DNA of 64,000 nt. Source: Desulfuromusa kysingii (lineage in GTDB: Bacteria > Desulfobacterota > Desulfuromonadia > Desulfuromonadales > Geopsychrobacteraceae). Below are positions 29,322 through 60,395 of this stretch, piece after piece. The DNA is taken from the NCBI RefSeq assembly GCF_900107645.1, contig NZ_FNQN01000011.1:58538-122537 (forward strand), given 5' to 3'. The translations under genes and the position numbers were made by a program. Under the pieces are notes generated by a model. It was not told the origin of the DNA and did no database searches. It was given only the letters and a program-made list of their open reading frames with translations. How positions within the stretch are numbered: position 1 is the first letter of the stretch; every line of letters begins with the position of its first letter.

Positions 29322-29864
29322 CTAACACCTTTCAGGTCTGAGATATTGCGCAATTAGACTTTCATCAAACAAATAGAGAAGATGAAAAGAACTGCCATTA
29401 TCATCATAAAAAACCCCAAAAATATCAGTTTCATACATGCTTTTCATGCCATTACCGGCGTTATAAAAGTAATTTTTTTTATTTAGATATTTAGCTAGCA
29501 TTTCGCCATAGTCAAAACCTTTTCCGGTATCATAAATTCGCAATAATATTCCTTGGTTGCCCTGATATATGTTCACTCCAATGGGGAGCTTCGCCTGACG
29601 TTTATGGCCGTGACAATAAGCATTTGATAAAGCTTCACTGATAAGACCACTGGAGCCAATCAACTGTTTGCGGTGTTTCTTCAACCAGGGATCCAAAAAA
29701 CGGGCCAGTTTCCGTTCTAAAAGAAATAACCAGTCATATTCAGGGAGGTAGCAACTGTGAGAAGCACAGGGCGCTGTCTTGGGAACAATTGTTTCATCAA
29801 AGATCAATTGTGGTTCCTCACCCAGTGTAGATAATGCTTGAGCAAATGTTAAAGATAAAAACAT
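29322..29864 (-). CDS. Histidine-kinase-like ATPase (anti-sigma type)
   Basis: A 180-residue protein with a stand-alone HATPase_c fold. The N box is LISEALSNAYCHGH (about residues 75-88) and the G1 box is YDTGKGFD (about 115), followed by GNGMKSMY. There is no dimerisation/phosphotransfer histidine domain, so it resembles the RsbW/SpoIIAB type that binds a partner rather than a two-component sensor. It ends an operon whose first gene is a response regulator and second a PHP protein, and starts four bases after the PHP stop. A partner-switching role is likely but inferred. Confidence 0.8.
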   Translation of the reverse strand: MFLSLTFAQALSTLGEEPQLIFDETIVPKTAPCASHSCYLPEYDWLFLLERKLARFLDPWLKKHRKQLIGSSGLISEALSNAYCHGHKRQAKLPIGVNIYQGNQGILLRIYDTGKGFDYGEMLAKYLNKKNYFYNAGNGMKSMYETDIFGVFYDDNGSSFHLLYLFDESLIAQYLRPERC

Positions 29865-30562: not shown

Positions 30563-31819
30563 TTAGCGAACTTCTTCAGCAATATCGAGAATCACTTTTT
30601 CAAGTTGCATTTTAGCCAATGCCACATTCGCATCAGCTTCGAGAACAACCAACATATGTATATGTGCCCGTCCGGCTTCAGAATTATGGAAGTCAGTATT
30701 TTCATTTAAACAGCGCATCAACAAGTTCGCTTTAGGAGCAACAATATGAACCATTGAGCCCCGACCAACGCCCATAATGTCTGTCTCTTCTTGAGCTTTG
30801 AGGAGAATGTCGTTTGCTAATGCGCCAACTTCAGCTAATCGCAGAGTACTGGAGACAGAGACTTCAGCCATAATTTCACCATCTGCGGAGAAAGCCCCTG
30901 CCGCAATAAATCCTTTGATCTTTTTTAAGACCTCCATTTTTTCTTCCATCATTTGAACTCCTTTTGGTGTGGTTAAGTGGTTCTGTTCTGAATCATTTTC
31001 CAGAGCAGAGGTTTTGGCATTATTGCCATCTGTTGACGTGTTTATATGGTCTGCTCCTACTTCTTCTCCCTGAGTAGCAGCAGTCTTACAACAATCTCGA
31101 TCAGAACCGTTGACAATGGATTTGAGTTGCTTGTTCGCTTTTATGCCGTGATTGGCTTCATCGATAGCCCTGAATGCCTCCATCAACAAATGTTCCATAG
31201 AGAAATTAATAACGTTCTCCCGCCGTTCACAGACTGAACACATAACTATCTCTGCGTTGTCCCAACCAATAATGCTCAAAGCGGCTTCAATGCCACTGAT
31301 ATCTCCAATTTCAGCATTGACCAATTCTCCAGCAAAGAGATACAAATGACCACATTTGCCCGCTGAAGTGACTGTCAGAGTGCAGGTTTTTCTTTCGACA
31401 TGCATCAATTGCAAAAATGTCGCCAAAGTGATCCCACGAATAAAACTATTCGTTCCAGTCGATAACCCTTCAAAAATTGCACTTTCTACCGTCTCCAGAT
31501 CTAAGGGCTTATTTAAAAACTGAAGGGCATTCATGGCTTCGGCACGTTCTTCAATCTCTGGAGTTCCAAATGCTGACATGACAATGACTGACAGTTTGGG
31601 TTGATATCTTAAAACCCAAGCCAAAATCTCAAAACCATTCATCTCAGGCATTTTCAAATCAGTCAGTAGCAAGTTGACCTTGGTTGTCCGCAGAATATCA
31701 ATGGCCTCTCGTCCATTGTCTGCACATAGCACTTCAAATTTCTCTTTGTGCTTGCTCAAGCCATCGTGAAGAGAAAGCAAAAATGATTTTTCATCGTCAA
31801 CTATTAGGACTTTATCCAT
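30563..31819 (-). CDS. Response regulator with PATAN (DUF4388) and roadblock domains
   Basis: A 418-residue cytoplasmic protein in three parts: a receiver domain (residues 1-120) with DDE metal residues and phospho-Asp in LLLTDLKMP (about 53); a PATAN/DUF4388 domain (about 130-245, ITLATFLQLMHVERKTCTL); and a C-terminal roadblock/LC7 domain (about 290-418). There is no DNA-binding or enzyme output, so it should act by protein contact, for example on small GTPases or cell polarity and motility machinery, as such domains do in related bacteria. The start used is the ATG before MDKVLIVDDEKSF with AAAGGCGG upstream; 29 further residues upstream are in frame but lack support. It is headed by a riboswitch-terminator leader about 400 bp long. 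Confidence 0.88.
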   Translation of the reverse strand: MDKVLIVDDEKSFLLSLHDGLSKHKEKFEVLCADNGREAIDILRTTKVNLLLTDLKMPEMNGFEILAWVLRYQPKLSVIVMSAFGTPEIEERAEAMNALQFLNKPLDLETVESAIFEGLSTGTNSFIRGITLATFLQLMHVERKTCTLTVTSAGKCGHLYLFAGELVNAEIGDISGIEAALSIIGWDNAEIVMCSVCERRENVINFSMEHLLMEAFRAIDEANHGIKANKQLKSIVNGSDRDCCKTAATQGEEVGADHINTSTDGNNAKTSALENDSEQNHLTTPKGVQMMEEKMEVLKKIKGFIAAGAFSADGEIMAEVSVSSTLRLAEVGALANDILLKAQEETDIMGVGRGSMVHIVAPKANLLMRCLNENTDFHNSEAGRAHIHMLVVLEADANVALAKMQLEKVILDIAEEVR

Positions 31820-32221
31820 GTTTATGTAACCGCCTTTAGAGCACATACTTGACACAGGATAACCACAGAGATTGAACGCTGGTGAATGGTTTTGACGCTC
31901 CTGCAAAACCTTATTTATCTGTCATATCAGGGGTTTAAAATATTTATTGTTTAAAAATAAAAGACCCAATGAACGTGGATACTGTTCATCATTTCATAAT
32001 CCAGATTAACTTAAGGTCATGGCCTGCGTTTAACAGTGTGCAAGAAAACATGCAAAGCAAATTGTTCAGCACAAACAAAACAAGCTTTTTTGTTTATTCT
32101 GAACATTGTTTACATGCTCATATAGATGGGATGCTTCCAGGTTTGCATGGCACTATGTTGCTAGCCAAGCATCAAGTATAGCCCCCCCCCAAAAAAACAA
32201 GACTTTTAATCCTGTCAAACT
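31820..32221 (-). other. Long leader between riboswitch terminator and response regulator
   Basis: About 400 bp with no convincing gene. It contains a homopolymer pair on the plus strand, nine C (32182-32190) followed by seven A (32191-32197), and a low-GC hairpin around the A/T-rich stretch at 32076-32098. No second promoter is clear. Confidence 0.6.
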
Positions 32222-32254
32222 AAAAAGCCCCTTTTCTGGCCGAAAAGGGGCTTT
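32220..32254 (-). terminator. Riboswitch expression-platform terminator
   Basis: Minus-strand stem AAAGCCCCTTTT and AAAAGGGGCTTT (12 bp, seven-base loop) runs into five T. It directly follows the GEMM aptamer, so ligand binding can decide termination. Confidence 0.85.
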
Positions 32255-32261
32255 GGTACCA

Positions 32262-32346
32262 TCCTTCGGCAACCCGGCTATCCGCATAGGACCCGTGGCT
32301 TTGCGTCCCCAAGTCTCCTTGGGTTTGCTATTTCAATAGATGTTAA
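32262..32346 (-). ncRNA. GEMM-I riboswitch, predicted 3',3'-cGAMP-sensing (A20)
   Basis: Read on the minus strand, the GEMM core is complete: AGCAAACCC, a GNRA-capped P2 (CCCAAG-GAGA-CTTGGG), the joining GACGCAAAGCC, then P3 with GGGTCC and the 3' strand GGATAGCCGGGTTGCC. In the Vc2 numbering, GCAAACC covers G21 to C27, so the base before it is position 20 and is A, not the G of c-di-GMP sensors. A20 is the change that makes Geobacter GEMM RNAs prefer 3',3'-cGAMP. The terminator follows at once, and the next gene is the response-regulator-PATAN-roadblock operon. Confidence 0.88.
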
Positions 32347-32563
32347 TTATTAACAGAAGAGATAATAATGGATAAGCGCTATAAAATCAATATAAGTTAT
32401 CGGTTTTATAGAATTACTTTAAATACAATATCAATGGGTGTATTAAAATCTCTAATCCCCTGCAATTAAAGGAATTTTAGTTCCATAAATAGGACTGATG
32501 AAAGATGTGAATATGAAGTTGACTAAATTAAATTCTAGAATCAGCCTTCTAGAAACCATTAAA

Positions 32564-33928
32564 TTAATGTATGTGGCGGTTAATCAGAAATCCTGCCGCA
32601 AAAATAACTAGAGAGACACAGAGGCCAAAATAAAGTGGCGATATCGAGACTCGTTGCATCATCCCCACCACGATGACAGAAGTCGGAGCAATAAAAATCG
32701 ACAAGGCCCCTGCCCTGCGGAGATGATATTTATGCAGGAAAACCGCAAATAATAGTGGGAAAAAGAGGGTTGCACCACGTAACCCCATGGAGAGAAAACT
32801 CCAATCCATAATCGCTGAACCTAAATTTAACAGCAACAAAACAAACGCCATTAACACCACCACAGTGGTAAGCACTCGGAAATATAATAATTCAGCTACG
32901 TTACCAGTCAACCAACTACGCAATATATCAATCTTCAGGGTCGTTGACACGCCAAGCGCTAATCCTGATGCCGTACCTACAGCAGCAATTAATAGAGCCG
33001 CAAAGGCAATCCCGGCAAAACTGGCTGGAAAATTCTCTGAGATAAACGCCGGTAACGCTAAAGCACTGATCATAGTCGGGGAGCTTTGCCGCATATACAG
33101 ACCCACCAGCACACCGAGCAACCCAAGGGGGAAAATCATCAACGCACTGATAAATGATCCATTGCGAGCGGTCGCCCCATTGGCTGCAGAGAATATTGCC
33201 TGTAGATAAGTCTGGGTGGAAATAACTCCGACCAACATCGATAACAGGTCTGATAAGCCTTCCTGAACTCCATATCCGAAGAAACTGAACCAAGGATAGT
33301 CAGGGAATGTTTCGTGCAATCCGTGCCATCCTCCGGCATGATTCAACGCCAGAAAACCGGCATAAAGCATGGTCGCATAGATCAATCCCATCTTAATCAA
33401 GCCGATTCTTCCAGCAGCTTTCATCCCGCCACCAAGGGTAAAAAGGATCACCAGTAACGTTGAAATAGTTGCACTCCATTGCAATGACAGTTGAAACATG
33501 ACCGCCAGGATGGAACCACAAGCCAACAACTGCGCAACGATCTGGACAAACATTCCTAGCCCAGTGAAAAGACTGGCGGCAACCCGGGCGGGTTCACCAT
33601 AATAGCGTGAGATATACTGAGGGATGGTTTCGACATTACTTTCACGTAAGGGCCGGGCTAGAAATAGTCCGAGGAACAGACAGGCCAATCCTGCTCCCAA
33701 GGTGAACCACCACGCCGAAAGGCCATAGAGGAACGCCAGTTGAGCGGTCCCTATCGTTGACGCTCCCCCCACCAGGGTTCCGGTAATAGCACCTGAAACG
33801 GCCCACGAATTAGCTTTTCTCCCACCAAGCGTAAATTCATTGCGACTATGGGCTTTAACTTTAGCTCCATAGGCAAAGTAAATGATTCCGATTATGGTCA
33901 TCGCAAAAGAGATAAAAAAAAGTGGCAT
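32564..33928 (-). CDS. Sodium:solute symporter family protein
   Basis: A 454-residue transporter with about thirteen hydrophobic segments of the SSS (sodium/solute symporter) family, shown by the helix-1 to 3 pattern TLGGRKANSWAVSGAITGTL near residue 33 and GASTIGTAQLAFLYGLSAWW near 54. The substrate (for example proline, acetate, pantothenate or another organic acid) cannot be told. It stands alone: its stop is 200 bp upstream of the riboswitch, and the leader before it can fold around CCACCTA/TAGGTGG. Confidence 0.85.
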   Translation of the reverse strand: MPLFFISFAMTIIGIIYFAYGAKVKAHSRNEFTLGGRKANSWAVSGAITGTLVGGASTIGTAQLAFLYGLSAWWFTLGAGLACLFLGLFLARPLRESNVETIPQYISRYYGEPARVAASLFTGLGMFVQIVAQLLACGSILAVMFQLSLQWSATISTLLVILFTLGGGMKAAGRIGLIKMGLIYATMLYAGFLALNHAGGWHGLHETFPDYPWFSFFGYGVQEGLSDLLSMLVGVISTQTYLQAIFSAANGATARNGSFISALMIFPLGLLGVLVGLYMRQSSPTMISALALPAFISENFPASFAGIAFAALLIAAVGTASGLALGVSTTLKIDILRSWLTGNVAELLYFRVLTTVVVLMAFVLLLLNLGSAIMDWSFLSMGLRGATLFFPLLFAVFLHKYHLRRAGALSIFIAPTSVIVVGMMQRVSISPLYFGLCVSLVIFAAGFLINRHIH

Positions 33929-60265: not shown

Positions 60266-60316
60266 AAAATAAAAAACCGAGTCCACCGAAGAAATAATTA
60301 TCCTTAGGTAGCTCGG
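60266..60316 (-). terminator. Terminator sharing the riboswitch 3' strand
   Basis: On the minus strand CCGAGCTACC pairs with GGTGGACTCGG (one bulge) and is followed by TTTTTTATTTT. Its left arm is the 3' strand of the aptamer, so aptamer folding and termination compete. Confidence 0.8.
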
Positions 60317-60395
60317 CTATCTTGCGAAGTTTTAGAGGAAAGACCCGGAGCTTTCCGTCTCTGCTTTTCAACAGGTTTGGCATTAGCTGGGATGA
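60302..60395 (-). ncRNA. c-di-GMP-I (GEMM-I) riboswitch
   Basis: Minus-strand core: TGCCAAACC, P2 capped by GAAA (TGTT-GAAA-AGCA), joiner GAGACGGAAAGC, then CCGGGTC and the 3' strand GATAGCCGAGCTACC. The base before the CCAAACC core is G at position 20, the c-di-GMP-type base. The pair G21-C46 of Vc2 is here C21-G46, a covariation that keeps the stem. The overlapped terminator and the ribosome site for the cupin gene complete the switch. Confidence 0.75.

Follow-up and report, generated by a model that had tools for sequence, protein, structure and literature searches.

In Desulfuromusa kysingii, a full-length GEMM-I aptamer is located on the minus strand (32337-32264) of a 64,000-nt stretch of contig NZ_FNQN01000011.1 (hereafter, the window) and is followed by an intrinsic terminator, a leader and three genes that encode a receiver-DUF4388/PATAN-roadblock protein, a PHP/PHP_C protein and a GHKL ATPase (Table 1). 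The PHP gene begins 79 bases after the first gene, and the GHKL gene 4 bases after PHP. In the first protein, both the receiver and the DUF4388/PATAN domain score above the Pfam cut-off, as do PHP and PHP_C in the second; on the GHKL protein, HATPase_c_2 reaches 22.3 bits (cut-off 27.4).

The roadblock domain (PF03259) has no match in the 418-aa protein in the Pfam search of the genome and falls below the cut-off in the homologs P0029, P0039 and P0046; some homologs carry the source name Roadblock/LC7/MglB. Because receiver domains filled the results of the full-length fold search, a separate prediction was made for the C-terminal domain. With this second model (mean pLDDT 63), Foldseek retrieves six structures at E <= 0.001, each of them an MglC, MglB or archaeal roadblock, which identifies the predicted fold as roadblock. 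Thus, the operon described in the original prediction, which had been made from the sequence alone, stands with respect to the gene order and the receiver, PATAN, PHP and GHKL assignments, whereas the roadblock domain is recovered as a fold but not as a Pfam match. A receiver-PATAN paralog about 62% identical over positions 2-224 (L063:6567-9457, minus strand, G000:C14) is encoded after a histidine-kinase-like ORF and before a 216-aa ORF without a Pfam match, and genes similar to it are common in relatives.

The length of the leader agrees with the spacing of about 400 nt proposed earlier between the terminator and the first gene. No sigma-70-like match was found in the leader in one simple scan. 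It contains a hairpin with 18-nt arms at 32063-32105 and a G run at about 32183-32191; a mobile element or repeat, suggested by the hairpin, was rejected, as the leader has no second genomic copy and folds no better than shuffled sequences. Within 31700-32600, the only sigma-70-like match is the site upstream of P1, which carries little weight since shuffles average 3.1 such matches. An SSF symporter gene precedes the riboswitch and ends about 226 bases upstream.

The original prediction called for a complete minus-strand GEMM-I aptamer with A at position 20 and proposed a covariance-model search as a check; both features are present. In the cmscan search, the aptamer is full length and exceeds the curated cut-offs of RF03167 (c-di-GMP-I-GGC, the best Rfam family for it; 60.5 bits, gathering cut-off 59, E 8.5e-12) and of RF01051 (67.6 bits, cut-off 35, E 5.9e-13 at whole-genome scale), which places it in the GEMM-I class. 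This A lies immediately 5' of the P2 G-C foot; because J1/2 is one base short, cmscan placed a gap in the position-20 column. Of the features that define GEMM-Ib, the window aptamer has this A but not the C-U foot with GGGGCGG, in place of which it carries a G-C foot and GGGGACGC. The assignment to a cGAMP-type aptamer therefore holds for A20 but not for the Geobacter GEMM-Ib type, the core and the P2 foot being of the c-di-GMP type. The riboswitch had no match in the plasmid search.

Table 1. Riboswitch, leader and operon features in window coordinates
Feature	Position	Strand	Basis or remark
GHKL ATPase, 180 aa, SpoIIAB/RsbW-like (below cut-offs)	29322..29864	-	Pfam/NCBIfam
PHP / PHP_C protein, 204 aa	29869..30483	-	Pfam; best NCBIfam match CehA/McbA metallohydrolase, below cut-off
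Receiver - DUF4388/PATAN - roadblock protein, 418 aa	30563..31819	-	Pfam and predicted fold
Leader (400 nt), terminator to first gene	31820..32219	-	unique in genome
Intrinsic terminator with U tail	32220..32254	-	hairpin scan
Predicted antiterminator 3' strand (UUUUCGGC), in terminator 5' half and loop	32239..32246	-	folding
P1 3' strand (CGAAGGAUG)	32260..32268	-	folding prediction
Predicted antiterminator 5' strand (GCCGAAGG)	32263..32270	-	folding
GEMM-I aptamer	32264..32337	-	RF03167 match
C predicted to pair with ligand guanine (C92 of Vc2, C75 of pilM)	32269	-	alignment; excerpt of PMC9262584
A, ligand-contact position 20	32329	-	alignment; role per excerpt of PMC6456294
P1 5' strand (CAUCUAUUG)	32334..32342	-	folding prediction
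Weak promoter-like site TTGATT-17-TATTAT	32362..32390	-	about 20 bases before P1

Aptamer types and recurrence of the gene set

We read 93 GEMM-I aptamers in 18 genomes hand-chosen out of 98, a set that leaves aside genomes without matches (e.g., G002 and G005), most other genera and the unanalysed loci L076-L105. Type names give the position-20 base followed by the two after it. Typing by script covered 83 aptamers (39 G-GC, 19 A-GC, 9 G-CC, 5 A-CU and 11 others or untyped, eight being untyped); ten were read by eye and added by hand, with four more A-CU and one more A-GC among them. In total, A-GC accounts for 20 of the 93 aptamers and occurs in 11 of the 18 genomes. The Geobacter-type A-CU aptamers, which carry GGGGCGGAAA or GGGGCAGAAA, number nine and are found in G016 and G022 only; we take A-CU with GGGGCGG to be the Gs1761 type. 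Ten of the 18 genomes, that of D. kysingii included, contain A-GC but no A-CU aptamer. The A-GC aptamers share the core of the G-GC type, the ACGCAAA pattern being present in 15 of 19 vs 37 of 39.

Of 136 genomes searched within the order, nine contain the roadblock domain of the 418-aa protein at E <= 1e-10. The domain is 70-77% identical in Desulfuromonas sp. BM522 (G015), Desulfuromusa sp. BB25 (G008) and Desulfuromonadaceae CSMAG_2089 (G007), and PHP follows in each. A single contig of Desulfuromonas sp. BM522 holds three GEMM-I aptamers, each located 128-264 nt before a copy of the module: a full receiver-PATAN-roadblock gene, a receiver-PATAN gene with a roadblock gene, and a roadblock gene on its own with PHP and GHKL behind it. 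All three have A at position 20 (two are aligned gap-free) and, like the window aptamer, belong to the A-GC type, so that A20 is found in four of four aptamers associated with this gene set. The proposed link between riboswitch and operon is thus supported by a second genus, with three riboswitches in one cluster. No GEMM-I match above the cut-off was found in the stretches examined around the gene set in G008, where the protein has no receiver and follows a GGDEF-EAL gene, and G007, where the contig ends inside PHP; hence, the riboswitch accompanies the gene set in two of four genomes. No link of the gene set to cGAMP was found in the literature searched.

Among the aptamers with a G-C foot, each of the seven small clusters defined by downstream genes has exclusively A or exclusively G at position 20, a result reached in 0.00165 of label shuffles with tandem members counted separately. 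Four of the seven are A clusters, and two of these span genera. Judging from this distribution, position 20 looks to be under selection in G-C-foot aptamers, and A20 as mere noise was rejected in view of the purity of the clusters. A lipoprotein-like gene cluster, which lies outside this test, is mixed, with G-GC aptamers in G020:C326 and G022:C4:841372 and A-CU aptamers in G016:C1:2869655-2869870.

Signalling genes follow 11 of the 19 script-typed A-GC aptamers, namely receiver-PATAN-roadblock modules (4), EAL-HDOD genes (2), receivers (2, one of them followed by a MshEN-receiver gene) and HAMP/CHASE4/SBP-PAS sensors (3). Downstream of the remaining aptamers lie a solute-binding protein gene, a PPIase gene, genes in which no domain is known, or the end of the contig. 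Besides the window aptamer, D. kysingii has a single further A-GC aptamer (L061:7244-7318, G000:C9), upstream of a lipoprotein-like ORF of 513 aa that has no Pfam match. In G004, two near-identical A-GC riboswitches lie about 4.3 kb apart on contig 28, one (L137, G004:C28:2513) before an EAL-HDOD gene and the other (L146, G004:C28:6863) running into the contig end.

A second aptamer in the window (60303-60390, minus strand, 63.5 bits) combines G20 and a G-CC foot with a terminator that draws on the aptamer 3' strand (ON-type), and precedes a 128-aa cupin-like ORF. Two tandem G-GC aptamers of D. kysingii (L062:7929-8243, G000:C23) precede a 1097-aa repeat protein, an arrangement also seen in relatives, in a cluster of 22 members that all have G20. 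One aptamer (L143, G007:C165:6768-6842, minus strand) has C at position 20; we know of no aptamer for either messenger with this base.

Terminator, antiterminator and predicted direction of the switch

The strong terminator claimed after the aptamer is indeed present: it begins 10 nt past the aptamer and consists of a perfect 13-nt stem (32254-32224, minus strand) followed by a U tail. Terminator-like sites number three, compared with 0.7 +/- 0.9 in shuffles. Minimum free energy (MFE) folding of the window RNA along transcription yields P1 up to about 108 nt, an antiterminator between 111 and 123 nt, and P1 together with the terminator from 126 nt onwards. In the antiterminator, the aptamer 3' strand is predicted to pair with the 5' half of the terminator, taking the ligand-pairing C.

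According to excerpts of PMC9262584, Cd1 follows an OFF logic, in that its aptamer and terminator can form side by side and the antiterminator takes the ligand-pairing C, whereas in the ON logic of pilM the two exclude each other. In the folding predictions, with a shuffle control that is weak for the window RNA (34 of 100 shuffled tails give an equally good antiterminator under the 5-pair rule), the window riboswitch follows the Cd1 pattern. Its aptamer and terminator are compatible with each other, and the antiterminator would form only at the expense of P1, so that an OFF switch is predicted. For the full-length RNA without ligand, the terminator is favoured by 13.0 kcal/mol; hence, the ON state would have to be kinetic.

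An antiterminator of at least 5 pairs is predicted in nine of 14 A-GC and 29 of 35 G-GC riboswitches, vs 3.4 and 2.35 expected from shuffled tails, the energy table and this control having taken in 14 of the 19 A-GC riboswitches. Cotranscriptional folding of eight A-GC riboswitches gave a clear antiterminator window in five; that in G000:C9 is partial and not made with the terminator, G015:3636 has no such window and G015:6931 is ambiguous. The base adjoining CCGAA shows modest covariation with the loop: pairing is possible in 40 of 47 riboswitches, a value reached in 0.0042 of shuffles of these related sequences. The 47 are those of 59 riboswitches that carry the UUCGG/UCCGG motif, 10 of the 12 left out being A-GC.

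The terminator-calling script is greedy. For the 19 A-GC riboswitches it called 14 separate terminators, two overlapping and three none; both overlapping calls come from G003, where a separate hairpin is visible by eye, and one riboswitch called without a terminator (G015:C61:5416) does have a hairpin, though its U tract is poor. The calls for the 39 G-GC riboswitches were 35 separate, three overlapping and one none, at a contig end. In A-CU and G-CC riboswitches, the terminator is built from the aptamer's own 3' strand: all nine G-CC and three of five A-CU were called overlapping, and for the two A-CU called separate, the script had picked the terminator of the next tandem copy.

Candidate ligand, proposed mechanism and relation to known systems

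A candidate cGAMP synthase is encoded on contig 22 of the D. kysingii genome. This GacA-like receiver-GGDEF protein (L054) combines the two Hypr features, a selectivity-position Ser and a motif that reads GGDEF rather than GGEEF, and is the sole protein with Ser and an intact GGDEF among the 24 of 25 D. kysingii GGDEF matches that were read (all except L048); another GGDEF-type protein with Ser has GGDDY. The best solved relative of L054, 6d9m, presumably a Geobacter protein, also has Ser at the selectivity position. A Ser-bearing GacA-like ortholog is present in 19 of 19 relatives searched, and the stops reported in three GacA-like loci fall at the end of 460-464-aa frames. Given that a Hypr enzyme is present in every genome searched, its presence cannot discriminate the A-GC set and was discarded as a test.

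The presence of A20 makes recognition of cGAMP by the window aptamer likely, and cGAMP is the likeliest predicted ligand, with dual c-di-GMP/cGAMP sensing possible. We give roughly even chances to the explanation that this A20 GEMM-I riboswitch binds cGAMP (possibly c-di-GMP as well) and turns the operon off by premature termination. Without ligand, GCCGAAGG, which includes the ligand-pairing C, would pair with UUUUCGGC of the nascent terminator and P1 would open; with P1 open and the antiterminator formed, the polymerase could read on into the operon. With ligand, P1 would be held, the GCCGAAGG strand would not be free and the terminator would form. The ligand would be produced by L054. In the cyanobacterium Synechocystis, PATAN domains bind PilB, the motor for pilus extension (excerpt of PMC10519157), and roadblock proteins, as described in excerpted sources, act on MglA in polarity control. 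By analogy, the receiver-PATAN-roadblock protein probably places the control of pili or polarity under a phosphorelay, and our guess is that the operon as a whole has such a role.

Alternatively, A20 might relax specificity, so that an OFF riboswitch of the same architecture would report c-di-GMP, or either messenger. We regard this as rather unlikely, even though it fits the c-di-GMP-type core and P2 foot, and the G20A form of Vc2 reportedly responds to both ligands rather than being selective. In excerpts of PMC9262584, G-to-A at the equivalent base of Cd1 has no large effect, so A20 may not exclude c-di-GMP, and changes in lower P2 affect ligand selectivity. Against this reading, A20 is kept in gene clusters, across genera too, whereas related riboswitches keep G20; in Gmet_0970, the choice between cGAMP and c-di-GMP is set by base 20, and A20G changed selectivity (excerpt of PMC6456294); G20A GEMM-I is listed in a table as a cGAMP sensor (excerpt of PMC11352751).

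The direction and reach of control admit other readings as well. That the window riboswitch is a cGAMP ON switch like those of Geobacter, where the published GEMM-Ib genes are activated by cGAMP (excerpt of PMC6456294), appears very improbable: the window terminator, at its distance from the aptamer, folds together with P1, and terminators that share the aptamer 3' strand belong to the A-CU and G-CC riboswitches. Scarcely more probable is that the aptamer and terminator are a remnant or give a short RNA of their own, the operon being transcribed from its own promoter in the leader. The gap offers room for another promoter, the terminator is strong at full length, and the gene set occurs without a GEMM-I match in the G007 and G008 stretches examined; but the single scan of the leader gave no sigma-70-like match, and every module copy in G015 has its own riboswitch just before it.

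Returning to the preferred reading of a cGAMP-responsive OFF switch, we tentatively extend it to the Desulfuromonadales, at a likelihood somewhat short of even: a second set of cGAMP riboswitches may have arisen through G20-to-A on c-di-GMP OFF riboswitches and would repress genes when cGAMP rises, many of them signalling genes, with PATAN-roadblock, EAL-HDOD, receiver and receiver-MshEN proteins and membrane sensors, rather than cytochromes, as targets. No published description of a set of A20 OFF riboswitches was found in the limited literature searched. If true, cGAMP would gain a repressive arm aimed at surface-motility signalling, and GacA-like enzymes would gain targets in genomes where no A-CU aptamer was found. 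A single base would re-wire a c-di-GMP switch with the expression platform unchanged, and a connection would exist between cyclic-dinucleotide signalling and the roadblock and PATAN regulators that act in surface motility. cGAMP is known to control gliding in Bdellovibrio (excerpt of PMC9140294).

Compared with known systems, the window riboswitch resembles the GEMM-Ib riboswitches of Geobacter (pgcA/GSU1761, pilM and Gmet_0970) in the GEMM-I fold, A20, the use of a transcription terminator and a similar J1/2 (GAyAAUA in many A-GC members). It differs from them in being A-GC with GGGACGC rather than A-CU with GGGGCGG, in its separate terminator and predicted OFF direction as opposed to ON, and in that the genes it precedes form a signalling operon, whereas the Geobacter ones head genes for cytochromes, pili or polysaccharides. 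With Cd1, the c-di-GMP OFF riboswitch of Clostridioides difficile, it shares the coexistence of aptamer and terminator and the predicted capture of the ligand-pairing C by the antiterminator (excerpts of PMC9262584), whereas Cd1 has G in place of A20, another gene set and an unrelated host. The G-GC riboswitches of the same bacterial family (e.g., G000:C23) have the same core, G-C foot and separate terminator with a UUCGG-containing antiterminator strand, but have G20, are often in tandem and precede other genes. Finally, the 418-aa protein shares its roadblock fold and DUF4388/PATAN domain with the surface-motility regulators of the roadblock (MglB/MglC) and PATAN kinds; unlike these, it joins receiver, PATAN and roadblock in one protein, whose operon also holds PHP and GHKL genes.
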